A stretch of DNA of 64,000 nt from Allokutzneria sp. A3M-2-11 16. Its GTDB lineage: Bacteria; Actinomycetota; Actinomycetes; Mycobacteriales; Pseudonocardiaceae. Made by a program: the position numbers and the translations under genes. The stretch spans positions 1-64,000 of the forward strand of contig NZ_JANAVO010000002.1 in NCBI RefSeq assembly GCF_024213555.1, written 5' to 3'. The notes below the pieces were generated by a model. That model was not told the DNA's origin. It was given only the letters and a program-made list of their open reading frames with translations, and made no database searches. Positions 15,499 through 43,053 of the stretch are shown piece after piece (within the stretch, counting starts at the first letter, position 1; each line of letters starts with the position of its first letter).

Positions 15499-15563
15499 TC
15501 CCGTTTCGTACTCTTGCCGGGATTTGGGAGCGCTCTCTTCCCCGCTAAGAGTACGAAACGGGA
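15499..15563. repeat. Type B intergenic inverted-repeat element, copy 1
   Basis: Perfect 17-bp arms at 15499-15515 and 15547-15563 (TCCCGTTTCGTACTCTT and its complement) surround a core with a central GAGCGCTC. It lies between the convergent ends of the DUF899 and DHOD-like genes, so it may terminate both. A second copy at 42987-43048 has the same arms and the same immediate flanks, but its core (15522-15539 here) is in reverse orientation. Confidence 0.8.
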
Positions 15564-28347: not shown

Positions 28348-28380
28348 CCGCCATCGAACCACCCGACCGCACCCGAGGTT

Positions 28381-28478
28381 GGGCGGTCTTCAAGTACCCC
28401 GCACCCCCCTCACAGCAGTCGCAAACCGCCCCCAACCCCGCCGCGCGCGCCAGGGTTAGCAGGTCTTGAAGACCGCCC
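28381..28478. repeat. Type A nested inverted-repeat element, copy 1 (internally shortened)
   Basis: Outer arms GGGCGGTCTTCAAG (28381-28394) and its perfect complement (28465-28478). The inner left arm (28418-28439) aligns with the 22-nt inner arms of copies 2 and 3 and begins at the same 32-base offset from GTCTTC. The matching right inner arm is mostly missing (only GGGTTAGC remains at 28453-28460), so this copy appears deleted internally. It sits between convergent gene ends. Confidence 0.75.
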
Positions 28479-28482
28479 GACG

Positions 28483-28860
28483 CTAGAGCCGGTCGCGCAG
28501 CCAGTCGGCGCACTCGGCGTCGGTGGCGAAGACCGCGAGCGGGAACGGCACCAGCTTGTTCATGCCCGCGACCCGCTGCGACTGCCACTCGACCTCCTCG
28601 GCCGCCACGACCGAGGCCCAGCCGACCACGAGGCCGCGCAGCCGGTCCGCGTGCTCGGTGGCCCATTCGACCTGCCGCTTCGCCGTGCCGGACTCGGTCC
28701 GGGACACGCCGGTGGTGGTGCTGATCAACCCGAAGCGCTCGCCCCGGTCGAGGTAGGAGCCGATGCGGTCCAGGGTGGCCTGCACGTCGGCCATGGACTG
28801 GCCGCCCGTCACGTGGTTGCGCAGGATCGGCCACCCGGACTCGTCCCAGGTCGTCGGCAT
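28483..28860 (-). CDS. Uncharacterised protein in an iron-box operon
   Basis: 125 residues from ATG 28860, two bases after the stop of the second acyltransferase gene. No family is recognised with confidence. A single alpha/beta domain with no signal peptide, ending in DAECADWLRDRL; the MADVQATLDRIGSYLDRGERFGLISTTTG layout recalls SpoIIAA/STAS-like proteins. It is the last gene of the operon that starts at the iron box, so it should be expressed under iron limitation. Its stop codon is only 4 bases from the type A repeat. Confidence 0.6.
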   Translation of the reverse strand: MPTTWDESGWPILRNHVTGGQSMADVQATLDRIGSYLDRGERFGLISTTTGVSRTESGTAKRQVEWATEHADRLRGLVVGWASVVAAEEVEWQSQRVAGMNKLVPFPLAVFATDAECADWLRDRL

Positions 28861-28862
28861 GG

Positions 28863-29450
28863 TCAGCTCCTCAGCAGCAGGTCGGGGGTGATGGTGTCCT
28901 CCGGTGTCCTCGGGCGCACCATCAGCTCGGCCGTCTTGTCCGGCAGGGTGATCCGGCCGACCGGGGTGAAGCCGAACGCCGCGGCGCTGCGCACGGCGGC
29001 CGCGTTGGTGGCGTTGGGCTCGCCGATGATGCGCCTGCACTCCGGGTCGGCGGCGAAGAGCGCGTCGATGATCGCCGGGGCGACGTCCTCCATCAGCCCG
29101 GCGCCGATGCTGCCGGGGTCGACGGTCACGTGCACGCCGAGGTCGTGCGGGTGGTAGCGGTAGAACTCGCCGATCCGGTCCAGCGCGACGCGGTAGACCT
29201 GCGTGTACACCAACGGAATCCCGTTGCGGGAGAACAACAACGGGATGGTGTGGCTACCGGAGAGGTGTCTGCGGACCTTCTCCGACCACTCCTCGAGGGT
29301 CCAGGTCTGCTTCCAGAACCGGGCGATCGCGGGGTGGTGCATCCACCCGTGCACGATCGCGACGTCCGCGCTGTCCGGCTCGACGACGCGGACCGACCAC
29401 GGAGGCGGCATGGTCGGCAGGGGCGGCGCGGGAACGGCGAGACCGGTCAC
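28863..29450 (-). CDS. GNAT acyltransferase, siderophore type (IucB/AlcB/MbtK-like), second of a pair
   Basis: 195 residues from GTG 29450, overlapping the previous stop (GTGA). Family features: HGWMHHPAIARFWKQTW, LVYTQVYRVALDRIGEFY, HDLGVHVTVDPGSIGAGL, and the acyl-CoA loop region ECRRIIGEPNATNAAAVRSA. These enzymes acylate N6-hydroxylysine or related hydroxylamines to make hydroxamates. It is about 35-40% similar by eye to the gene immediately upstream, suggesting duplication with different acyl or amine specificity. No hydroxylase or NIS/NRPS gene is present in the window. Confidence 0.8.
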   Translation of the reverse strand: MTGLAVPAPPLPTMPPPWSVRVVEPDSADVAIVHGWMHHPAIARFWKQTWTLEEWSEKVRRHLSGSHTIPLLFSRNGIPLVYTQVYRVALDRIGEFYRYHPHDLGVHVTVDPGSIGAGLMEDVAPAIIDALFAADPECRRIIGEPNATNAAAVRSAAAFGFTPVGRITLPDKTAELMVRPRTPEDTITPDLLLRS

Positions 29451-30070
29451 GGCGCGGCCTCGGAGACCGCGGGCCTGCGCAGCGGCGAATCGGCTTCACC
29501 GCGCGGAAAAGCCATCAGCAGCCCGGTCTTCTCCGGCAGCTCGATGGTGTACTCGGACCGGAACCCGGCGGCTTCGAAGGCCCGCACGGACATGACGTTG
29601 TCCGCGTCGGGCTCGGCAACCACGCGGCGGCACTCGGGGTCCGCGGCGAACAACCCCAGGCAGGTGTCGCGCAGGATCGAGCGGCCCAGCTTCCGGTTGG
29701 TCTTCGCCTCGTCACCGATGGCGATGTGCACGCCGAGGTCGTGCTCCTCGTAGGAGTAGAACGGCCGGACCCGGTCCAGCGGCACGCGGTAGACCTGGAG
29801 GAACGCGACCGCGCCCATCGACTCCGACAGGGCGAGGACGGGCAGCGTGTGCAGGGCGTGCTTGGTCGCCCGGAAGGCGTGCACGACCTCGGCCCACTTC
29901 TGCCTCGGCCACGCCTCGTGCCACCACCGCTCGACGTGCGGCTCGTGCATCCACGCGTGGACCAGGTCGACGTCCGGCGAGCGGCGGCCGTCACCGGCGT
30001 CCGGCTCCGCCGCCCGGAACGTCCAGGTCCGGCTGGACACGGGCAGCGGCGGGGGTAAGCCCTCGATCAC
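29447..30070 (-). CDS. GNAT acyltransferase, siderophore type (IucB/AlcB/MbtK-like), first of a pair
   Basis: 207 residues from GTG 30070, chosen because GGAGG lies five bases upstream. Same fold and motifs as its neighbour: VHAWMHEPHVERWWHEAWP, AFLQVYRVPLDRVRPFY, HDLGVHIAIGDEAKTNRKLG and ECRRVVAEPDADNVMSVRA. The start lies 20 bases downstream of an iron box, so transcription is probably repressed by an IdeR/DmdR protein when iron is plentiful. Likely role: acylation of a hydroxylated amine in hydroxamate siderophore assembly. Confidence 0.82.
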   Translation of the reverse strand: MIEGLPPPLPVSSRTWTFRAAEPDAGDGRRSPDVDLVHAWMHEPHVERWWHEAWPRQKWAEVVHAFRATKHALHTLPVLALSESMGAVAFLQVYRVPLDRVRPFYSYEEHDLGVHIAIGDEAKTNRKLGRSILRDTCLGLFAADPECRRVVAEPDADNVMSVRAFEAAGFRSEYTIELPEKTGLLMAFPRGEADSPLRRPAVSEAAP

Positions 30071-30089
30071 GACATCCTCCGTTACATAC

Positions 30090-30124
30090 CTAGGCAAGGC
30101 TCGCCTACATTAGGAGAGCCTTAC
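30090..30124 (-). promoter_or_regulatory. IdeR/DmdR-type iron box upstream of the acyltransferase operon
   Basis: CTAGGCAAGGCTCGCCTAC (30090-30108) matches the 19-bp actinobacterial iron box TTAGGTTAGGCTCACCTAA at 14 positions. TTAGGAGAGCCTTAC (30110-30124) looks like a second, weaker half-overlapping site. The box lies 20 bases before the GTG start, within the expected promoter. IdeR/DmdR1 dimers binding such boxes repress siderophore genes when Fe2+ is bound. Confidence 0.72.
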
Positions 30125-30169
30125 CCGTCGGTAGGTGACGGGGCGGTCACGAGTACCGCTCGAAACGCC

Positions 30170-31600
30170 CTACTGCTCCGGACGGCGGAACAGCGCGCAG
30201 AACATCGCGTCGGTGCCGTGCCGGTGCGGCCACAGCTGCACGTACGGCCCCTCGCCCAGCTCGGGCACGCCGGGGAAGTACTCCCGCGCGTCCACCACCT
30301 CGAACTTGGCCCGGCGGGCGGCGTCCACGGCGATGCCGACCGTCTCGGACAGGTGCGGCGAGCAGACCACGTAGCCGACCACACCACCCGGCCGGACCAG
30401 GCGGAACGCCGAGCGCAGCAGCTCGCGCTGGATCTTGGTCAGCCCGCCGACGTCCTCGGGCTTGCGGCGCCAGCGGGCTTCCGGGCGCCTGCGGAGCGCG
30501 CCCAGGCCGGTGCACGGGGCGTCCACCAGCACGCGGTCGAACGCGCCCTCCGGCAGGTCGGGCTCGCGGCCGTCGCCCACGTGCACCGTGACCGGAAGGC
30601 CCTCGGTGGCCTGGCGGACCAGCTTCGCGCGGTGCTCGGCCTGCTCGACGGCGTCGAGGGTGCCGCCCTGGATCGCCACCAGGGCGCCGAGCACGTTCGC
30701 CTTGCCGCCGGGACCGGCGCACAGGTCGAGCCAGCGCTCGTCGGTCCCGGTGACCGGGACGCGGCTGAGCGCGACCGCGACCAGCTGGCTGCCCTCGTCC
30801 TGCACGGCGGCCAGGTGCTGGCGGATGGGCTCCAGCTCACCGGGGTCACCGGAGTCCAGGTGCACGCCATAGGGCGAGTACGGGGCGGGCTCGCCGCCGG
30901 TGATCGCGGCGAGCTCGTCGGCGCTGATCTCGCCGGGCCGGGCGACCAGGTGCACACCGGGGCGGGCGTCGTCGGCGGCGAGGGCGTCGGCCAGCTCACC
31001 GTGGGCGCCGCCGAGCGCGTCGGCGAAGGACTGCGCGATCCACTTCGGGTGCGCCGTGCGCAGCGCCAGGTTGCCGATCGGGTCGGTCTCGGCGGACGGG
31101 GCGAGCTGCTCCACCCACGCCGCCTCGTCCTGCTGGGACACCTTGCGCAGCACGGCGTTGGCGAAGCCGCCCGCGCCGCCACCGGCCTCGACCCGGACCA
31201 TGTCCACACTGGACGCGACGGCCGCGTGCGCGGGAATCCTGGTGCGCAGCAACTGGTACGCGCCCAACCGCAGCACGTCGAGCACTCGTCCGTCCACTTC
31301 GGACAGAGGGCGGTCGGCGCAGGCCGCGAGCACCGCGTCGAGCAGGCCCTGCGCCCGGCTGGTGCCGTAGCCCAGCTCGGTGGCCAGCGCCGCGTCCCGG
31401 CCGGTGATCTTGCGCTCCCGCAACAGCTTCGGCAGCACCAGGTTGGCGTAGGCGTCGCGTTCGCGCACCGCCCGCAGCGTCTCCAGCGCGGCCACCCGCG
31501 CCGGGTCCAGCTCGGGCGGGCGCCGCGGCGCCTCCGAGCGCCCACGCGGCGGCCCCGAGTTCCGCGAGCCGCCCCGCCTGCGTGGCTGGTTGAAAGTCAT
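30170..31600 (-). CDS. rsmB: 16S rRNA (cytosine-967-C5)-methyltransferase, RsmB/Fmu family
   Basis: 476 residues. A basic N-terminal tail precedes an NusB-like RNA-binding domain (about 30-170). The SAM-dependent m5C methyltransferase domain has [10 protein letters not shown] (SAM loop), DAPCTGLG (motif IV Cys) and VCSPHLSE (motif VI Cys), the two Cys of RNA m5C enzymes. ATG 31600 overlaps the fmt stop (TGATG). Part of def-fmt-rsmB, matching Rv1406-Rv1407 order. It contains two of the GTCC-N5-GGAC 13-mers (31202 and 31292). Confidence 0.93.
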
Positions 31601-32523
31601 CCGAGTCGTTCTCCAGCTTCGATACGGCTGCCGCGGGCCCAGTCGGTGGCGGCCATCCTCTTCTTGCCCTGCGCCTGAACCTCGCCGAGTTGCACCGCGG
31701 TCGTCGCGGTCCCGACGAGCACGCGGCGCTTCTCCACGCGCAGCTCGCCCGGCGCCAGGCCAGTCTCGTCCGTCGGCAGCACCGGAGCCAACTTGAGCCG
31801 TTCCTCCCGGAACACCGCCCAGGCGCCGGGGTCCGGCGTCACCCCGCGCACCAGGCGGTCGACCGCGGCGGCGGGCGCGGTGAAGTCCACCCGCGCGTCG
31901 TCGACGGTGACCTTCGGGGCCAGGCTGACGCCCTCGGCGGGTTGTTCGACGGCCACCAGCGTGCCGTCCTCGATTCCGTCCACAGTGGACAACAGCAGGT
32001 CCGCACCGGAGACCGACAACCGCTCCAGCAGCTCGCCCGCGGTGTCCCGCTCGCGCACCTTCTCCGTCACCACACCGAAAACCGGCCCCGCGTCGAGCTC
32101 CCGCACGATGCGGAACGTGCTCGCGCCGGTGATCTCGTCGCCGTGCCGCACGGCGGCCTGCACCGGCGCCGCGCCGCGCCACGCGGGCAGCAGCGAGAAG
32201 TGCAGGTTGACCCACCCGTGCCTGGGGATGTCCAGCGACCGCTGCGGCAGCAGGGCGCCGTAGGCCACCACCGGGCAGCAGTCCGGCTCCAGCTCGGCGA
32301 GCCGGGCCAGGAACTCGGGGTCACCGGCCTTGGCGGGGGTCAGCACCTCGATGCCGTGCTCGTCGGCGAGCTCGCCCACCGGGGAGCGGCGCACCTTCTT
32401 GCCGCGACCGGCTGGCGCGTCCGGGCGGGTCACCACGGCAACCACCTCGTGCCGCGGCGAGTCGATCAGCGCGCGCAGCGAAGGCAGCGCGACCTCCGGG
32501 GTCCCGGCGAAGACCAGCCTCAT
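31597..32523 (-). CDS. fmt: Methionyl-tRNA formyltransferase
   Basis: 308 residues. [16 protein letters not shown] start, [33 protein letters not shown] (the SLLP-x-x-x-G formyl-folate motif) and [17 protein letters not shown]. It formylates initiator Met-tRNA, and the adjacent def product removes the formyl group after translation. It overlaps both neighbours by 4 bases, so def-fmt-rsmB is one coupled unit. An exact GTCCACAGTGGAC 13-mer lies at 31978-31990. Confidence 0.95.
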
Positions 32524-33074
32524 CGCGCGCCCCCCTGGCCGAAGAACGGGTGCGGGCTCTCCTTGATCACGGGCACCCCACCATCGAACCACTCCGCCGC
32601 GCGGATCTCCCGCAGCGCCCGCTTCCGGGTCTCGGCGTCGAGCCGGTCGACGAAGAGCACCCCGTCGAGGTGATCGCTCTCGTGCTGGATGCACCGGGCC
32701 AGCAGGTCGCTGCCCTCCACCTCGATCGGCTCGCCGTGCATGTTCCAGCCCTTGGCCACCACGTGCAGGTGCCTGCGGCAGTCCCAGCTCATCCCCGGGA
32801 TGGACAGGCAGCCCTCCGGCCCGTCCTGCTCCTCGTCGCCGACCACGTCGAAGGTGGGGTTGATCAGGTGCCCGGCGAACCCGTCGCAGTGGTAGGTGAA
32901 CACCCGTTGGCTCACCCCGATCTGCGGGGCGGCGATCCCCGCGCCACCCTTGGCCTCCATGGTGTCCCAGAGGTCCCGCACGAGACCGCGCAGCTCCTTG
33001 TCGAAGTCCACCACCTCGGCGGCCCTGGTGCGCAGCACAGGATCGCCGAACAAGCGGACGGGCTGAACGGTCAC
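32520..33074 (-). CDS. def: Peptide deformylase
   Basis: 184 residues from GTG 33074. All three deformylase motifs are present: [20 protein letters not shown] (metal-ligand Cys) and QHESDHLDG (two His ligands and the catalytic Glu). The C-terminal extension is that of actinobacterial type 1/3 enzymes. First gene of the def-fmt-rsmB operon. The 84-base gap to the divergent sigma-factor gene must contain both promoters. Confidence 0.95.
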
Positions 33075-33158
33075 GGGGCTCCTCTCAGAACGGGTCCCGT
33101 CAGTCTACGAAGCTGAACTCGACGCAACGGCGGTGGGCGGACCGGCCACTCCCCGGGT

Positions 33159-33770
33159 ATGACGACTGCGACGAGGCTGCTCGCGGTGACGGAACGGAGC
33201 GTGCTGGTGACCGAACCCCCCGGCGACCGCGAACTGTGGCTGCGCTCGGCCAACGGTGACCGCGACGCCTTCGGTGAGCTGTTCGAACGGCACGCCGAGG
33301 CCGTGTGGAACCACGCGTACCGGCTGACCGGCTCGTGGGCCACCGCCGAGGACCTGGCCTCGAGCACGTTCCTGACCGCATGGCGCAAGTGCGGGGAGCT
33401 GGTCCTGGTCTCCGAGAGCGCGCTGCCCTGGCTGTTCACGGTGGCGGGCAACCTGGCCCGCACGGAGTCCCGCAGGCTGCGGCGCTTCCGGCGCGCGGTC
33501 GACCGGCTGCCGGAACCCGCGGCCGTGCGCGACCACGCCGACGGGGTCGCCCAGCGGGTGGACGACGACCGCAGGCTGCGCGAGGTGCTGGCCGCAGTCG
33601 CCCGGCTGCCCAGGGGTGAGCGCGAGGCCGTGCAGCTGTGCCTGCTCGGCGAACTGTCCTTCGCGGACGCCGCGACCGCGCTCGGCATCGCCGAGTCCAG
33701 CGTGCGCGCCCGCATCTTCCGCGCCAGAGCGAAACTGCGTGCCGTCCTCCCCGAGGGAGCCTCCCGATGA
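33159..33770 (+). CDS. ECF-type RNA polymerase sigma factor
   Basis: 203 residues. Sigma region 2 (DRDAFGELFERHAEAVWNHAYRL ... AEDLASSTFLTAW) and region 4 (RLPRGEREAVQLCLLGELSF with ALGIAESSVRARIFRARAKL helix-turn-helix). No C-terminal extension. The stop overlaps the ATG of the next gene (ATGA), which encodes a single-span protein and may be its regulator. The exact ECF group and target promoters cannot be told from sequence alone; the RsgA-like actinobacterial SigE/SigJ types are possible. Confidence 0.88.
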   Translation: MTTATRLLAVTERSVLVTEPPGDRELWLRSANGDRDAFGELFERHAEAVWNHAYRLTGSWATAEDLASSTFLTAWRKCGELVLVSESALPWLFTVAGNLARTESRRLRRFRRAVDRLPEPAAVRDHADGVAQRVDDDRRLREVLAAVARLPRGEREAVQLCLLGELSFADAATALGIAESSVRARIFRARAKLRAVLPEGASR

Positions 33771-35074
33771 GCGACTTCGACCTGCCCCCGAAGCGCACGC
33801 TGCCGTTCGAGGTGCGCATGAGCATGCGCGGCAAGCTCAACGACGGGATGAACTCCCCGCGCCGCCCCCGCGTCTCCTTCGGCGCCCTGTTCGCCACCAT
33901 GACCCTGGTCGCGGGCACCGCGGTGGGCGGCCCGCTGCTGTTCGGGGCGGCCGACGAGGGGCCGCTGCCCGGCGGTGAACCGAACTTCAACGAGAAGGAC
34001 CACGAGCGGATCGTCGCGAGCATGGTCAAGCACAAGGACGCGGACCTGGACCGCTGCCGTCAGGCCGGTGGCGACCGGTTCGGCGACCGATCCCGTTGGC
34101 GCGCGGTGTTCCGGACATCCCAGAACGGCGGGGACGTCACCGCCATCCGCACCGATGGCAGGCCGCTGTTCTGCCACACCACCAGGACCCAGGTGCACCT
34201 GTTGCACTCTGATGTTCCCGACGCCACCAACGACCACGCCGTCCAGCTGCACGCCGTCTCCCGGTTCGGCTTCCTCGCGGGCAGCACGAGCCGCGACAGC
34301 GTGACGGTCACCGTGACCGCCGAGGAGTACTTGGTCCGCGACGGAGTCCCGAAAACGTCGTACCACAGGGAGGGAACGACCGTCGTCGACGGCCTCTTCG
34401 TGCTACCGACGTTGACGAGTCCGGGCGCACTTTCCTTGACCTCCAACGGGATGAGGCGGCACCGGGTGACCAAGCTCGGCCATCGCCGCCCCGCGCTGAC
34501 CCCGGTCCTCACCGTCACCGACCGGCCGATCCGGGCGAACCGGGACTCCGCGCTCGGCCAGGAGCTGTCCGCGTGCGTCGCCGCCGCCGCGAACACCGGT
34601 CGTCCCGCCCCCGATCCGGAGTCGTGGGAACCCGCGTTGGCGCTGGACCTCGGAAAGCACGGCAGGACGCTGGTCGCCCGGTCCGGGGAGCAGATCGGCG
34701 TGTGCCGGACCGCGGGCGCGGCGCCGGGGTTCTGGTCCATCCCGCCCAGGGACCTGGACGAACAGCGGCCCGCGCCGTCGGCGGACCGCCCGGTGGTGCC
34801 GGGCTACCTCGGCACCCCGGAGCTGGAGATCAGCACGCGCGCCGGCCGGGTGCTGCCGGAGGTGACCAAGCTGACGCTGATCGACAAGAGGTCCGGCGAA
34901 CGCCTGCCCACCGTGCTGGGCAACGGGATTTTCGTCGTCCAGCCCCTCGACCCGAGAACGGTCACCGGGGGCCGTGGCTCCTCCACCCTCAGCGGGCCGT
35001 TGCAGGCCGAGATCACCGAACGGACCCCGAAGGGCGGCGAGAGCACCAGAACGGTGGTGGTGACCTACCTCTGA
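33767..35074 (+). CDS. Single-span membrane protein coupled to the ECF sigma gene
   Basis: 435 residues. Basic cytoplasmic N-terminus of about 33 residues, one membrane helix (about 36-55, FGALFATMTLVAGTAVGGPL) and a long extracytoplasmic part with several Cys (CRQAGGD, LFCHTT, LSACVAAAAN, GVCRTAGA). Its place and coupling suggest an anti-sigma or sensor partner. No HxxxCxxC zinc anti-sigma motif is visible, and the cytoplasmic segment is short. I do not recognise a family for the outer part. Confidence 0.65.
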   Translation: MSDFDLPPKRTLPFEVRMSMRGKLNDGMNSPRRPRVSFGALFATMTLVAGTAVGGPLLFGAADEGPLPGGEPNFNEKDHERIVASMVKHKDADLDRCRQAGGDRFGDRSRWRAVFRTSQNGGDVTAIRTDGRPLFCHTTRTQVHLLHSDVPDATNDHAVQLHAVSRFGFLAGSTSRDSVTVTVTAEEYLVRDGVPKTSYHREGTTVVDGLFVLPTLTSPGALSLTSNGMRRHRVTKLGHRRPALTPVLTVTDRPIRANRDSALGQELSACVAAAANTGRPAPDPESWEPALALDLGKHGRTLVARSGEQIGVCRTAGAAPGFWSIPPRDLDEQRPAPSADRPVVPGYLGTPELEISTRAGRVLPEVTKLTLIDKRSGERLPTVLGNGIFVVQPLDPRTVTGGRGSSTLSGPLQAEITERTPKGGESTRTVVVTYL

Positions 35075-35305
35075 GCAGGTCAAGCACACGAACGGGCGTC
35101 GGAGGCGAATGGTCCGGCGCCCGTCCTTCGCCGTACATCCCGAAGCGATGCTGTGGCTACCCCGAAGAAACCCTGGGGGGTGATCCTCAGGTGCCACTGA
35201 GAGTCCCTCAGCCATCCCCCGAAATGGTTGCGGGGTGATTCCGGGTAGTCCGGGAGTATTCCCTGATGGTTCCGAACGACGGCGCGCACAAGAGTTGGTC
35301 GTGTG
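35075..35305. other. 231-base gap with tandem GC hairpins
   Basis: Two similar stem-loops follow the sigma-partner gene: CCCCGAAG...GGGG near 35160-35180 and CCCCCGAAATGG...GGGG at 35216-35235, both continuing as GGGTGAT(T/C)C. A GGGAGTATTCCC palindrome lies at 35252-35263. The stems could terminate the sigma operon, while the last palindrome could be a regulatory site for the transporter gene 43 bases downstream. No gene is supported here. Confidence 0.4.
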
Positions 35306-36250
35306 ATGGAACTGACCGTGCCGGCCGTGGTGCTGGCCGCGCTCGGCGCCTGCTGTTATGCGGGAGCGGCGCGGTTGCAGCACAGCGCCGTCCGTGCGGC
35401 GGGCACCGGCGAGACGCTGAAAATGGCCTCCCTGCTGGGTTTGCTGCGCGACCGGCGCTGGCTGCTCGGCCTGTCGCTGCTCGTCGGCGGCACCGCGCTG
35501 CACGCGGTCGCCGTCGCGATCGGTCCGCTGATCGTGGTGCAGCCGGTGGGGGTGCTCGCCCTGGTGCTCGCCGCCGTGCTCGACGCCCGCCAGTCCGGCG
35601 AATCCCTTACCCTGCAACGACTCGCGCCCGTCCTGACGGCGACGCTCGGCATGGGTGTGTTCGTCGTGCTCGCCGCGGGCAACACCGGCTCGGTGCTCGC
35701 GCCGCTCACCGCGGTCACCGACGCGCTGCTGATCAGCGCGGGCCTGCTCGCGGTGCTCGGCCTGCTCGGCGCGCTGAGCTCCGGCGGCCGCCGCTGCCTC
35801 GCCCTCGGTGTCGCGGGTGGTGTCTCCTATGGACTGATCTCGGTCCTCATTCGTCTTGTGTCCCAACGCTTCCAGCTCAGCGGCGAGGTCGATCCGCTCG
35901 CCCTGCTCGGCATTGTCGCCGCGCTGCTGGTCGGCGGCTGGTGCGTCCAGCAGGCCTACGCCAGCGGCCCGCCGCACATGGTGGTCGCCTGCCTGACCGT
36001 GGTCGATCCGCTCGTCGCGGTGGGAATGGGCGTCGGCCTGCTCGGCGAGGCCGCGGGCACCGGCCCGGCCATCGCCGTCCTCGAACTGGCCTGCGCGGCC
36101 GTCGCGCTCGCCGGAGTCACCCTGATCGCCTTGCGCGACAACAAGAACTCCGCACCACCGGGCGGGCCCGACAGCGGCGCTCCCGATCACGAGCGGGTGC
36201 TCGCCGCCGCTCACGCCACGTCACCCCTCACGGACAGGACCGAACCATGA
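35306..36250 (+). CDS. DMT-family (EamA-like) membrane transporter
   Basis: 314 residues with about nine to ten hydrophobic segments. The N-terminal LAALGACCYAGAARLQHSAVR segment and GPLIVVQPVGVLALVLAAVLDAR are typical of actinobacterial DMT proteins that precede a glycosyltransferase gene. A GTG at 35303 is an alternative start. Its stop overlaps the ATG of the glycosyltransferase, so the two are probably made together, perhaps for lipid or polyol glycosylation and export (inference). Substrate unknown. Confidence 0.78.
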   Translation: MELTVPAVVLAALGACCYAGAARLQHSAVRAAGTGETLKMASLLGLLRDRRWLLGLSLLVGGTALHAVAVAIGPLIVVQPVGVLALVLAAVLDARQSGESLTLQRLAPVLTATLGMGVFVVLAAGNTGSVLAPLTAVTDALLISAGLLAVLGLLGALSSGGRRCLALGVAGGVSYGLISVLIRLVSQRFQLSGEVDPLALLGIVAALLVGGWCVQQAYASGPPHMVVACLTVVDPLVAVGMGVGLLGEAAGTGPAIAVLELACAAVALAGVTLIALRDNKNSAPPGGPDSGAPDHERVLAAAHATSPLTDRTEP

Positions 36251-37500
36251 CCAGCAACCGTCCCCTGCGGATCGTCATCGGCGCCGACACCTTCCCGCCG
36301 GACGTCAACGGCGCGGCCAACTTCGCCCACCGGCTCGCGGTCGGCCTCGCCTCGGTCGGTCACGAGGTGCACGTGCTGTGCCCGGCGCCCGCCGCGGGCG
36401 CGCCCATGCTCGCCGGGGTGAACGCCGTCGACGGCATCACCGTGCACCACCTGAAGTCCTACCGCTGGCCGTTCTACGACGACTTCCGGTTCTCGGTGCC
36501 GTGGAAGGCGAAGGCGGAGACCGAGGAGCTGCTGTGGCAGATCCGCCCGGACCTGGTGCACGTGCAGGCGCACTTCGTCGTCGGCCGCGCGCTGTCGAAA
36601 ACCGCGCCGGCGCTGGGAATTCCGCTCGTGGCCACCAACCACTTCATGCCGGAGAACCTCTTCGCCCACGCCAAGGTCCCGCGCTGGCTGCGCAGCACCG
36701 CCGCGAAGCTGGCGTGGCGCGACCTCGCCAAGGTCTTCGGCCGCGCGCAGATGGTCACCGCCCCGACGCCCAGAGCCGTGGAGCTGTTGCACGCCAACAA
36801 GCTCGGCCAGGAGGCGCTGGCGATCTCCTGCGGGATCGACATCGAGAAGTACCGGGGCGGCACGCCCGTCGCGCGGACCCCGGGCGCGGCCAAGACCGTG
36901 CTGTTCGTCGGCCGCCTCGACGAGGAGAAGCGCGTCGACGAGCTGCTGCGCGCGCTGGCGAAGCTGCCGGAGCACGTCGACGTCCGCGCGGAGATCGTCG
37001 GCGGCGGCAGCTGCGAGAAGTCCCTCGCCGACCTGGCGGGCAAGCTCGGCATCGCCGACCGCGTACGCTTCCTCGGCCGGATCAGCGACGAGGAGCTGGT
37101 GCAGGCGTACGCGCGCTGCGACCTGTTCTGCATGCCGGGCATCGCCGAACTGCAGAGCCTGGTCACGATGGAGGCGATGGCCGCGGGCAAGCCGGTGATC
37201 GCCGCCGACGCGATGGCCCTGCCGCACCTGGTGCGCCCCGGCCACAACGGCTGGTTGTTCCCGCCCGGCAACGTGCTCGTGCTCGCCGCGCGGCTGGCGC
37301 AGACCCTCGGCGACGAGGAGATGCTCCGCCGGATGGGCGCGGCCAGCGCGGACATGATCACCGAGCACGCGCTCGCCGCCACCCTGGAGCGCTTCGAGTC
37401 CCTGTACCGCAAGGTGATCGCGGACGCGCAGGGCAGGCTCCGCCTGGTGCCGAAGATCGAGGCGACGGAGCGCCCTGCCGACCTACCCCGCTCCGCGTGA
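36247..37500 (+). CDS. GT4-family glycosyltransferase
   Basis: 417 residues with two Rossmann lobes (GT-B). Acceptor lobe start: IVIGADTFPPDVNGAANFAHRL. Donor lobe: TVLFVGRLDEEKRVDELLRAL, DRVRFLGRISDEEL and an FCMPGIAELQSLVTMEAMAAGKP region matching the E-x7-E nucleotide-sugar motif. Resembles PimB/MshA-type retaining enzymes. No signal peptide, so it acts at the cytoplasmic membrane face. Coupled to the DMT transporter gene upstream. Sugar and acceptor unknown. Confidence 0.85.
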   Translation: MTSNRPLRIVIGADTFPPDVNGAANFAHRLAVGLASVGHEVHVLCPAPAAGAPMLAGVNAVDGITVHHLKSYRWPFYDDFRFSVPWKAKAETEELLWQIRPDLVHVQAHFVVGRALSKTAPALGIPLVATNHFMPENLFAHAKVPRWLRSTAAKLAWRDLAKVFGRAQMVTAPTPRAVELLHANKLGQEALAISCGIDIEKYRGGTPVARTPGAAKTVLFVGRLDEEKRVDELLRALAKLPEHVDVRAEIVGGGSCEKSLADLAGKLGIADRVRFLGRISDEELVQAYARCDLFCMPGIAELQSLVTMEAMAAGKPVIAADAMALPHLVRPGHNGWLFPPGNVLVLAARLAQTLGDEEMLRRMGAASADMITEHALAATLERFESLYRKVIADAQGRLRLVPKIEATERPADLPRSA

Positions 37501-37529
37501 CCGCCCACCTCCGCCGCCCAGGTACGTAG

Positions 37530-37648
37530 GTCTTCAAGTACCCCCAACCCCACCTCAAATAGTCGCTAACCGCAGCAAACCCCTGACGTGCCACGGGGTT
37601 TGCTGCGGTTAGCGACGCCGGGAGCCGGGGTGGGGTGTACTTGAAGAC
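37530..37648. repeat. Type A nested inverted-repeat element, copy 2
   Basis: The outer 12-nt arms GTCTTCAAGTAC (37530-37541) and complement (37637-37648) enclose a perfect 22-bp inner stem (37562-37583 and 37595-37616) with an 11-nt loop. Each inner arm is separated from its outer arm by exactly 20 bases. It lies between the convergent ends of the glycosyltransferase and priA genes. The inner hairpin alone is strong enough to act as a bidirectional terminator. Confidence 0.88.
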
Positions 37649-37674
37649 GGGGGGACCCGCGCTGGGAGCCGGGG

Positions 37675-39705
37675 TCAGACGAGTTCGGGTGGGTCGAAGC
37701 GGACGCGGACGGGGTCGGGTTCCTTGCGCGCGGTGCGCACGCCCTGCGCCTCCGCCAACGCCGACGCCAGCACCCTGCCGTCGCGGCGCGGAACCCGGAT
37801 CAGCGCGCGTTCCCGCTCCGCGAGGCCGTCCGCGCCCTCGGGGCCGAGCGGGACCGGGCCGAGCACCTCGGCCGATTCGGGCAGCCGCACCGTCTCCAGG
37901 AACTTCGCGACGGCATCGGGAGTGCCGTCGACCGTCCCCATGCGCACCGCGGGCGGGAAACCGAGCTCCTGCCGCCCGGCCAGCTCCTGGCGGGCGTGCC
38001 ACACCGGGTCCCACCGGACCAGCGCCTGCACCGGGGCGAGCGCGGACTCCGCGATCACCACGACCTTCCCGCCATCGGAACCCGGCCGCACCAGTGCGGC
38101 CGCGGTGATCCACTTGCGGTACGCCTCCTCCGTGGCGCGCAGGTCGGCCCGGTTCAGCAACGCCCAGCCGTCCAGCAGCAGCGCCGCGCCGTAGCCGCCC
38201 TCCGCGACCGGCTCCGCCCCGGGGGTGGCCACCACGAGCGCGGGTTTGCCCGGCACCGTGGCCAGCACCTCGTCGGCCCCGGAGGTGCGGACGACGACGC
38301 CGGAGAACGCGCGCCCCAGCTCCTCCGCCGTCCGCTTGGCGCCGATCACCGCGGCACGCATGCGGCGCGATGAGCAGGCAGGGCAGACGAACGACGCCTC
38401 GCTGACGCCGCACCACCGGCACGCGGCCGGTCTCGGCTGGTCGTCCCGCGATCCCCCGGGCAGCGCCAACGGCCCGGCGCAGCGGCGACAGCGCGCGGGC
38501 TCGCGACAGTTCGCACAGGTCAGCGACGGCACGTAGCCCCGTCGTGGGACCTGGATCAGCACGGGGGCACCCGCTGCCAACGCTGAGCGCGCGGCGTCGA
38601 AGGCGATCGACGGCAGCCGGGCGCCGCGCGCGGCGGGATCACGGGCGAGCTGCGTATCGGTCTCCCCGATCGACGCCACCCTCGGCGCGGCCGCTCGGAC
38701 CTGCTCGCGCGTGCCGATGATCTCGTGCGCCCACCCCGTGTCGACGAGCAGCTGCGCCTCGGTGGTGCGCGCGAAACCCGCCACGAGCAGTGCGGCTCCG
38801 TTGGCGTGCGCGCGCTGCGCGAGGACTTCACGGGCATGCGGATAGGGCGAGCGCTGTTCGGCGTGCAGATCGTCGCCGTCGTCCCAGATCACCAGCAGCC
38901 CCGGATCGTGCACGGGCGCGAACGCCGCGGCGCGAGTGCCGACGACCACGCGAACGGCTCCGCGCAGCACGGCGAGCCAACGCCGGTAGCGCTCAGCCGG
39001 GCCGAGATCGGCCGACAGCGCCACAACGCCTTCGGCGCCCATCAGTGCTTCGCAGGCCCTGTGCACACGGGTGAGGTCGCGGTGGTCGGGAACAACGATC
39101 ACCGCGCCGCGCCCCGTCGAGGCGACCGTCGCCGCGGCTTCGGCGAGGCGGGCGGGCCAGTCCTCCCCCGGCAGCGCCTGCCACACCGCGTGCGCCGCCC
39201 GGCCCGCGAGCGCAGCCTCCAGGAATGCCTTGCCGCGCGGATAGCCGTGCCACACCTCGGCGGTGGGCGCCTCGGGCACGGGAGCGGGGGCGCGCGGCGG
39301 CTCGGCCTCCACCTTGGCGTGCCTCGGCGGGATCGCCAGCCGCAGCACGTCGATCATCATGCCCGCGCCCCGGTCGGCGACCGCGCGGGCCAGCTTCATG
39401 ATCTCCGGCGCCAGCACGGGTTCCGCGGACACCACTCTGTCCAGATAGGACAGTCGCCCGCCGAACTCCGAGGACTCCACCCGCTCCAGGACGTAGCCGT
39501 CCACCAGCTGCCCGGCGAAGCGCACCCGCACCCGCGCCCCAGGGACCGCGGCGGCGTCGTCGTCGCTGGGCACCAGGTAGTCGAAGGGCCGGTCCAGGTG
39601 CGCCAGCGGCACGTCCACGCAGATTCGCGCGAACGGCAGCGACTCGGCGGGTTGGCGTTCCCCCTTGCGCTTCGCCCGCGGTTTCCCACCCGGTTTTCCA
39701 GCCAC
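37675..39705 (-). CDS. priA: Primosomal protein N' (PriA), actinobacterial form lacking helicase motifs
   Basis: About 676 residues from GTG 39705; a start at 39732 would add nine residues. The 3'-DNA-binding domain (ARICVDVPLAHLDRPFDYLVP) and the eight-Cys zinc-binding insert (CANCREPARCRRCAG ... CRWCGVSE ... CPACSSRR) are intact. The helicase motifs are not: no GxGKT Walker A is seen where expected (HGYPRGKAFLE instead), and the DEAH box reads WDDGDD. Actinobacterial PriA proteins are known to lack these motifs, so it probably works in replication restart as a structural loader without ATP-driven unwinding. Confidence 0.85.
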   Translation of the reverse strand: MAGKPGGKPRAKRKGERQPAESLPFARICVDVPLAHLDRPFDYLVPSDDDAAAVPGARVRVRFAGQLVDGYVLERVESSEFGGRLSYLDRVVSAEPVLAPEIMKLARAVADRGAGMMIDVLRLAIPPRHAKVEAEPPRAPAPVPEAPTAEVWHGYPRGKAFLEAALAGRAAHAVWQALPGEDWPARLAEAAATVASTGRGAVIVVPDHRDLTRVHRACEALMGAEGVVALSADLGPAERYRRWLAVLRGAVRVVVGTRAAAFAPVHDPGLLVIWDDGDDLHAEQRSPYPHAREVLAQRAHANGAALLVAGFARTTEAQLLVDTGWAHEIIGTREQVRAAAPRVASIGETDTQLARDPAARGARLPSIAFDAARSALAAGAPVLIQVPRRGYVPSLTCANCREPARCRRCAGPLALPGGSRDDQPRPAACRWCGVSEASFVCPACSSRRMRAAVIGAKRTAEELGRAFSGVVVRTSGADEVLATVPGKPALVVATPGAEPVAEGGYGAALLLDGWALLNRADLRATEEAYRKWITAAALVRPGSDGGKVVVIAESALAPVQALVRWDPVWHARQELAGRQELGFPPAVRMGTVDGTPDAVAKFLETVRLPESAEVLGPVPLGPEGADGLAERERALIRVPRRDGRVLASALAEAQGVRTARKEPDPVRVRFDPPELV

Positions 39706-39772
39706 TCCGCTGGTGTACCAGAGACCACCCACGCCCGCCGCAACAAGGCCCTCCTACCCCGCACGCTAGTTG

Positions 39773-39912
39773 GCCGGTCTTCAAGTACCACCAACCCCCG
39801 TCAGAAAAGTCTTTAACCGCCCCTAACCCCCTGCGCCACCACCCGGGCACCGCGGGGGTTGGGGGCGGTTTGCGATCGCTGGGAAGGGGGTTCGGTGTAC
39901 TTGAAGACCGGC
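39773..39912. repeat. Type A nested inverted-repeat element, copy 3
   Basis: Outer arms are 16 bp and perfect (39773-39788 and 39897-39912, GCCGGTCTTCAAGTAC and complement). The inner arms (39809-39830 and 39855-39876) pair over a 16-bp G:U-tolerant core with a 24-nt loop. The 20-base spacers between outer and inner arms equal those of copy 2. It lies 3' of the response-regulator gene and 5' of priA, so it is not restricted to convergent junctions. Confidence 0.85.
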
Positions 39913-39941
39913 GAACCCCGGTGGGGGTGATTGGGCGTCGG

Positions 39942-42986: not shown

Positions 42987-43048
42987 TCCGTTTCGTACTC
43001 TTGCCGGGAAAGAGAGCGCTCCCAAATCCCGCTATGAGTACGAAACGG
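42987..43048. repeat. Type B intergenic inverted-repeat element, copy 2 (inverted core)
   Basis: Perfect 13-bp arms CCGTTTCGTACTC (42988-43000) and complement (43036-43048) match copy 1. The bases just inside the arms (TTGCCGGG on the left, CCCGCTA on the right) are the same and in the same orientation in both copies. The 18-19-base core, however, is the reverse complement of that in copy 1 (here AAAGAGAGCGCTCCCAAAT). It lies 5 bases after the methyltransferase stop codon and upstream of the sensor-kinase gene. Confidence 0.8.
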
Positions 43049-43053
43049 GAAAA

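Follow-up and report, generated by a model that had tools for sequence, protein, structure and literature searches.

Palindromic elements of REPIN-like design at gene 3' ends in Allokutzneria sp. A3M-2-11 16

Introduction

The first 64,000 nucleotides of contig NZ_JANAVO010000002.1 of Allokutzneria sp. A3M-2-11 16 (the window) contain three copies of a palindromic intergenic element, here called family A. A first-pass annotation of the window had proposed a non-autonomous mobile element, a bidirectional terminator or a structured RNA. The locus raises the question of what such an element is and why it lies where it does. The reading put forward here, which we consider to have about an even chance of being right, is a population of non-autonomous palindromic elements whose ends would be read in trans by a protein, resembling the REPINs (hairpin-forming doublets of repetitive extragenic palindromic sequences, REPs). 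The source genome (8.81 Mb, 43 contigs) is referred to as G000, and positions in its contigs C1, C2, C11 and C39 are given as contig:position. G034 is a sister congener, G068 an outgroup congener, and other G numbers denote further genomes compared.

Results

Family A was found to be present in high copy number. Exact copies of the 12-mer end motif number 449 in G000 (222+227), compared with 1+1 for a reversed-pattern control, and a strict pattern gave 98 inverted 12-mer pairs with 65-95 bases between them and 0 in the control. With small changes allowed, 34 pairs were counted in an 864-kb sample of G000, made up of 800 kb picked irrespective of elements and the 64-kb window. Strong sites of the end module, M1, had a strong inverted partner in 164 of 193 cases in 1.66 Mb of DNA, half of it picked around known elements; of the remaining 29 sites, ten had a loose partner and 19 had none. 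For the first-pass annotation, a covariance model that finds only the three loci of the window would have spoken against its reading, and this was not the outcome: every one of the 150 candidates scored in G000 matched, giving at least 150 matches with both strands counted. The idea of a DNA-uptake sequence was set aside because the sites are mostly paired and seldom genic.

The full element consists of two inverted M1 end modules around two inner modules, M2, with the sequence GTCnnnAACCGCnnCnAACCCC. M1 is a dyad of about 29 bp, GGTT-N5-GTCTTcAAGAC-N5-AACC, centred on CTTCAAG and spelled GTCTTCAAGTAC in G000, with TAC on one side. The consensus, drawn from a set of 104 arms and one of 90 elements, is GGTT-N5-GTCTTCAAGTAC-NNC-NN-ACCCC, followed by a 10-base spacer with little conservation, then GTCnnnAACCGCnnCnAACCCC, the loop and the same parts in mirror order. 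An end is thus more than one side of an outer RNA stem, being a dyad in itself, 32 bp from the inner module. The interior is diverse and the ends are nearly invariant, and the base before GTC is unfixed (C in 30 and G in 36 of 79 arms). Element lengths go in steps of about 11 bp: among the 90 elements, nine were of 108 bp, 15 of 109-113, 55 of 118-123 and four of 130-132, and rarer forms were five of 87-88 bp, one of 59 and one of 154. Loop lengths of 0-5, 10-15 and 22-24 were observed, those of 6-9 and 16-21 were missing, and the Rayleigh maximum was near 10.5 bp. These steps fit helical phasing, though loop lengths may be common by descent. At C11:176674-177482 two elements are separated by 0.7 kb; their left halves agree in about 60 consecutive bases and the rest differs, and one of them is an 87-bp form.

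The three copies in the window were borne out (Table 1), and the exact register, with the inner arm starting 32 bases past the outer start in all of them, was confirmed. Nine matches to the end motif with at most two mismatches were found in the window, whereas shuffled sequences averaged 1.17 and nine was not reached in any of 100 shuffles. Fold z-scores on both strands were -9 to -11.5 for copies 2 and 3 and about -5 for copy 1. The motif excess together with the fold z-scores of copies 2 and 3 excludes chance. No Rfam match reached the gathering score within the window. Some details of the first-pass annotation needed correction. The right end of copy 1 is GTCTTCAAGACC, two bases off GTCTTCAAGTAC; the 20-base right-side spacer attributed to both copies 2 and 3 is common to them in length and not in sequence. 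The right inner arm of copy 1, thought to be lost for the most part, is absent, but the three-module form recurs as the 87-88 bp class (five of 90 elements).

Paired changes had been described in both the inner and the outer stems. In an alignment of 29 elements 83.7% of cells pair, compared with 82.2% after shuffling, so that most pairing comes from two copies of one consensus. When groups of positions were compared across 83 elements, those that vary in the outer module showed no covariation, left and right matching in 0.455 against 0.443 of shuffled cases (z 0.5), and the 10-base spacers paired less than expected by chance (0.354 against 0.430, z -4.3). Inner positions 36-38 (0.578 against 0.428, z 4.7) and 42-49 (0.683 against 0.524, z 8.5) did covary. 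The paired changes thus hold genome-wide for the inner arms, and at the outer variable positions left and right are independent. Genuine paired change is confined to the inner module, and both selection on a hairpin and arm-to-arm copying are possible causes. One long RNA stem under selection was rejected for the outer part by both pairing tests.

Family A lies mostly at the 3' ends of genes. In intergenic spacers of at least 60 bp in the 864-kb sample, as delimited by a simple gene finder, it was found in 26 of 70 convergent, 19 of 231 tandem and three of 124 divergent spacers (convergent versus divergent, p 1.3e-10), and 15 of the 19 tandem cases were nearer to the stop of the upstream gene than to the start of the next. 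Only two exact-core marks lay deeper than 30 nt within a gene, as called, in the 864 kb, where a stop codon was found within 60 nt of the element in 20 of 22 convergent pairs. In G141, at eight loci picked as strong covariance-model matches, at least one stop codon lay within 6 nt of the element in all eight. The element at C2:14506-14635, first called divergent, sits between two minus-strand genes. A minus-strand LysR-type frame ends inside this element, which supplies its last codons and stop.

A second and unrelated palindrome, family B (CCGTTTCGTACTC...GAGCGCTC...GAGTACGAAACGG), occupies 16 further convergent, 11 tandem and none of the 124 divergent spacers, so that A or B is present in 42 of 70 convergent spacers. 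Both together were found in only two convergent spacers, which is rarer than independence would give (p 0.01).

The end motif is restricted in its distribution. Across 249 genomes of the family Pseudonocardiaceae G000 alone was rich in the 12-mer; G034 had seven, G068 had 12, and the other family genomes listed had at most four, near the reversed controls. The dyad GTTN5GTCTTNAAGACN5AAC was found in seven of 297 family genomes (G000 22, G068 21, G006 27, G008 24, G130 3, G141 3 and G034 1), with 0 for its reversed control among the matches listed, and a wider-core dyad pattern in one of 394 genomes taken class-wide, 391 of them outside the family, namely G000. With 150 candidates scored per genome and both strands counted, the covariance model matched G034 39 times and G068 47 times, and it had matches in 17 of 180 family genomes. 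Three of these, G014, G045 and G057, with matches of about 31 bits, were dropped as plain hairpins that are not family A, leaving 14 genomes in seven genera. The modules vary between genomes. In G006 M1 is a perfect core palindrome and two 29-bp dyads lie 3 bp apart; in G130 four modules stand in tandem at 32-33 bp in a non-mirror order. M1 is spelled with TAC at 159 of 199 sites in G000, with ACC most commonly in G068 (11 of 29; TAC 4) and as GTCTCCAAGACC at 13 of 21 in G141. The difference in spelling between species was also seen at two shared sites. The open-access literature searched contained no description of family A.

Identities over one interval of about 20 kb were 91.6% for G000-G034, 87.9% for G000-G068 and 86.9% for G034-G068, which makes G000 and G034 sisters. 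G034, at about 92% identity, lacks nearly all family A elements. Where a convergent A site could be matched to G034 (11 of 14), the median spacer was 178 nt in G000 and 69 nt in G034, and at B sites (six of seven) it was 140 nt and 7 nt, compared with 206 nt and 195 nt for element-free divergent spacers (48 of 54 compared). Some of the G034 counterparts carry another inverted repeat and several have nothing. Remnants were recognised in G034 at the sites corresponding to C11:5772, C11:256411 and C11:393889, and a decayed G034 element corresponds to C2:52880; for C11:108862 the G034 element is about 2 kb off, and its status as a remnant is uncertain. Among five G000 elements with both flanks present in the G068 DNA compared, the counterpart was clear for C11:239397, and for C1:82578 G068 keeps a decayed inner part; C11:267993 has a G068 counterpart with one flank matched. 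In the other direction, G068 has 23 model sites; both flanks could be located in the compared G000 DNA for two of them, and at these two G000 carries an element too, the stretches having been picked for carrying elements, which biases them to sharing. The comparison with G034 and G068 places A at C11:239397 and B at C11:246513 before the split, with loss in G034. As judged from these alignments, sister remnants or an outgroup copy show that at several sites the element is older than the G000-G034 split. Both gain and loss are likely. A stretch of about 38 kb in G000 (C11:323867-361607) has no long match in the syntenic G034 region and is perhaps an island.

The most alike elements of equal length at distinct sites (L170 and L177) are 90% identical over 119 bp, and their flanks score 0.22 and 0.37. 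Two others, L149 and L151, have one half in common, up to the AACC boundary. By comparison of such copies, the elements are copied without their surroundings, apparently by transposition or by conversion between elements.

Besides families A and B, other palindromes were observed. Elements in G068 have the same GAGCGCTC centre as family B but other outer arms, CGCGTTTTGGCAACG. At one G068 locus (L108) a family A element flanks a gene whose counterpart in the window (15466) adjoins family B, one side being matched. Arrays of CCCTGAATGAGTCATTCAGGGC- or AACGACCCGTT-type palindromes with a period of about 30 bp and GTTCAAGTAC-like linkers, named family C, occur in G000 at C11:22539, 251518, 298552 and other sites; the linker GTTCAAGTAC resembles the family A core, and the first motif, CCCTGAATGAGTCATTCAGGGC, is over-represented in G034 too. 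A short palindrome, GTCCACTGTGGAC, is over-represented in both G000 and G034 in many places.

Table 1. Family A and family B elements in the window
Feature	Model span	Core	Strand	Modules	Neighbouring genes	Basis
Copy 1 (A), three modules	28377..28482	28386-28473	.	outer 28386-28407; left inner 28418-28439; right outer 28452-28473; without right inner	+ gene (STAND NTPase/WD40) at 38 nt; - gene at 9 nt; 3' ends facing	covariance model and sequence; modules read from sequence
Copy 2 (A), full, four modules	37521..37657	37530-37648 (119 bp)	.	outer 37530-37551; inner 37562-37583; 11-base loop; inner 37595-37616; outer 37627-37648	+ glycosyltransferase gene at 29 nt; - gene with PriA 3'BD domain at 26 nt; 3' ends facing	
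Copy 3 (A), full, four modules	39768..39917	39777-39908 (132 bp)	.	outer 39777-39798; inner 39809-39830; 24-base loop; inner 39855-39876; outer 39887-39908	33 nt past stop of - response-regulator gene; next - gene (as called) 158 nt on	
Family B copy	15500-15562					
Family B copy	42988-43049					

Discussion

Several known systems resemble family A in part. ERIC, Correia/NEMIS and similar elements are likewise palindromic and intergenic and about 100-150 bp long. Module arrays with a 32-bp register are not known for them, and the likeness noted is one of general form. Integron attC sites also have two paired boxes per arm and an unpaired spacer, but family A is mirror-symmetric and no cassette array was seen. 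The operator of a butenolide receptor is described as containing ACTTGAAGAC (PMC7347384). REPs and REPINs are described as high-copy inverted doublets of a conserved short sequence, with a less conserved hairpin-forming spacer that shows compensatory changes, and as extragenic, between convergent and tandem genes, near stop codons or supplying them (PMC3116915, PMC3733652). Family A likewise has a short conserved motif that is repeated many times and lies outside genes, forms inverted doublets with preferred spacing, and has a variable interior with compensatory changes, at inner positions only. It differs in lacking a fixed GTAG or CGTC tag, GTAG being missing from the consensus, and in its end, a dyad of about 29 bp, with two module types 32 bp apart and length steps of about 11 bp; the Y1/RAYT transposase that goes with REPINs was not found in G000. 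Family A agrees with what is described for REPINs and REPs in design, number, ends, interior and 3' placement, but since both tag and RAYT are missing we call it REPIN-like and do not class it as a REPIN.

Two of the originally proposed readings, mobile element and bidirectional terminator, are still alive because of the high copy number, the element-only similarity of distant copies and the place just past stop codons, mainly between convergent genes; the case for selection acting on the double stem as a whole has become weaker. From the near-invariant ends and the species spellings we infer a putative trans-acting protein that reads M1. Such a sequence-specific protein would recognise M1 as phased duplex DNA or as an extruded hairpin, and would copy or maintain the element. 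Elements might settle at gene 3' ends either because they are harmless only there or because they serve there as two-way boundaries of transcription. Loss of the factor or of the selection could explain the sister species, its copies having been deleted or having decayed. A number of observations weigh against the REPIN-like reading. Y1/RAYT (PF01797) was not found in G000, G034, G068, G141, G006, G008 or G179, the search giving one match in G155 (six of seven relatives without) and being positive in five of 14 control genomes, and no helper or autonomous partner was identified. Among 88 elements and 282 tests no convincing target-site duplication was detected, the best z of 3.4 falling inside the N5 region of the element. 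No unpaired ends flanking a gene-sized insert were seen in the 1.66 Mb, whole-element pairs around a gene not being searched. Three of the five elements compared with G068 (C1:84506, C11:233559 and C39:163144) have no recognisable counterpart there. The gene context in G068 is mixed, with four of nine sampled loci called divergent, two convergent, one tandem and two open, and the gene calls come from a simple, home-made codon-based finder. Finally, M1 intact at old G000 sites fits selection and copying equally, and detection needed M1 and is biased to that extent.

The main rival of the REPIN-like reading is a host role as a protein-read two-way boundary. A dedicated dimeric DNA-binding protein on phased M1 (and M2) would separate adjacent transcription units, most of them convergent, as a two-way roadblock, a terminator or a topological insulator, and the spelling would co-evolve with the protein. 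The strong convergent bias, the sharing-out of convergent spacers between A and B, the nearby stop codons, the stepped loop lengths, the outer modules without covariation and the species spelling at shared sites all favour this role. It is nevertheless rather doubtful: no protein was identified, pure duplex binding does not predict the inner covariation, shared loop lengths may be inherited, and REPs, which are thought to be mobile, are described with the same 3' bias (PMC3733652). Moreover, the orthologous convergent spacers of G034 are short and several carry nothing, so that such junctions can do without an element. Ordinary two-way intrinsic terminators, in which transcripts of both strands would form the double stem and so stop transcription, the likeness in sequence being incidental, would account for the stable folds on both strands, the 3'-end position and the covarying inner arms. 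No T run past the stems was seen by eye in copies 1-3, the outer stem is not selected for pairing and the spacers pair below chance, one G130 array has a non-mirror order, and terminators need no shared species spelling at hundreds of loci; this explanation is improbable. A classical miniature inverted-repeat transposable element (MITE) of a cut-and-paste DDE transposon is very improbable. Inverted ends, high copy, intergenic position and element-only similarity of distant copies are as a MITE would have them, but no convincing target-site duplication was detected, and a diverse interior with nearly invariant ends is unlike a burst from a single master copy.

A bolder proposal, which we regard as unlikely, is that several Pseudonocardiaceae carry protein-read gene-end punctuation in the form of hundreds of helically phased operator arrays (A, plus the unrelated B). 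These would mark about 60% of convergent junctions, as in the sample; their spelling would shift genome-wide between species with the reader protein, and the system would be losable within about 8% divergence.

REPINs have been described with RAYT transposases, and a comparable population is present here in a genome in which none was found. A single genus thus lets one ask how such elements are moved or kept where no RAYT is present. It also lets one ask whether repeats at gene ends benefit the host, because junctions with an element can be compared with their counterparts that have none.

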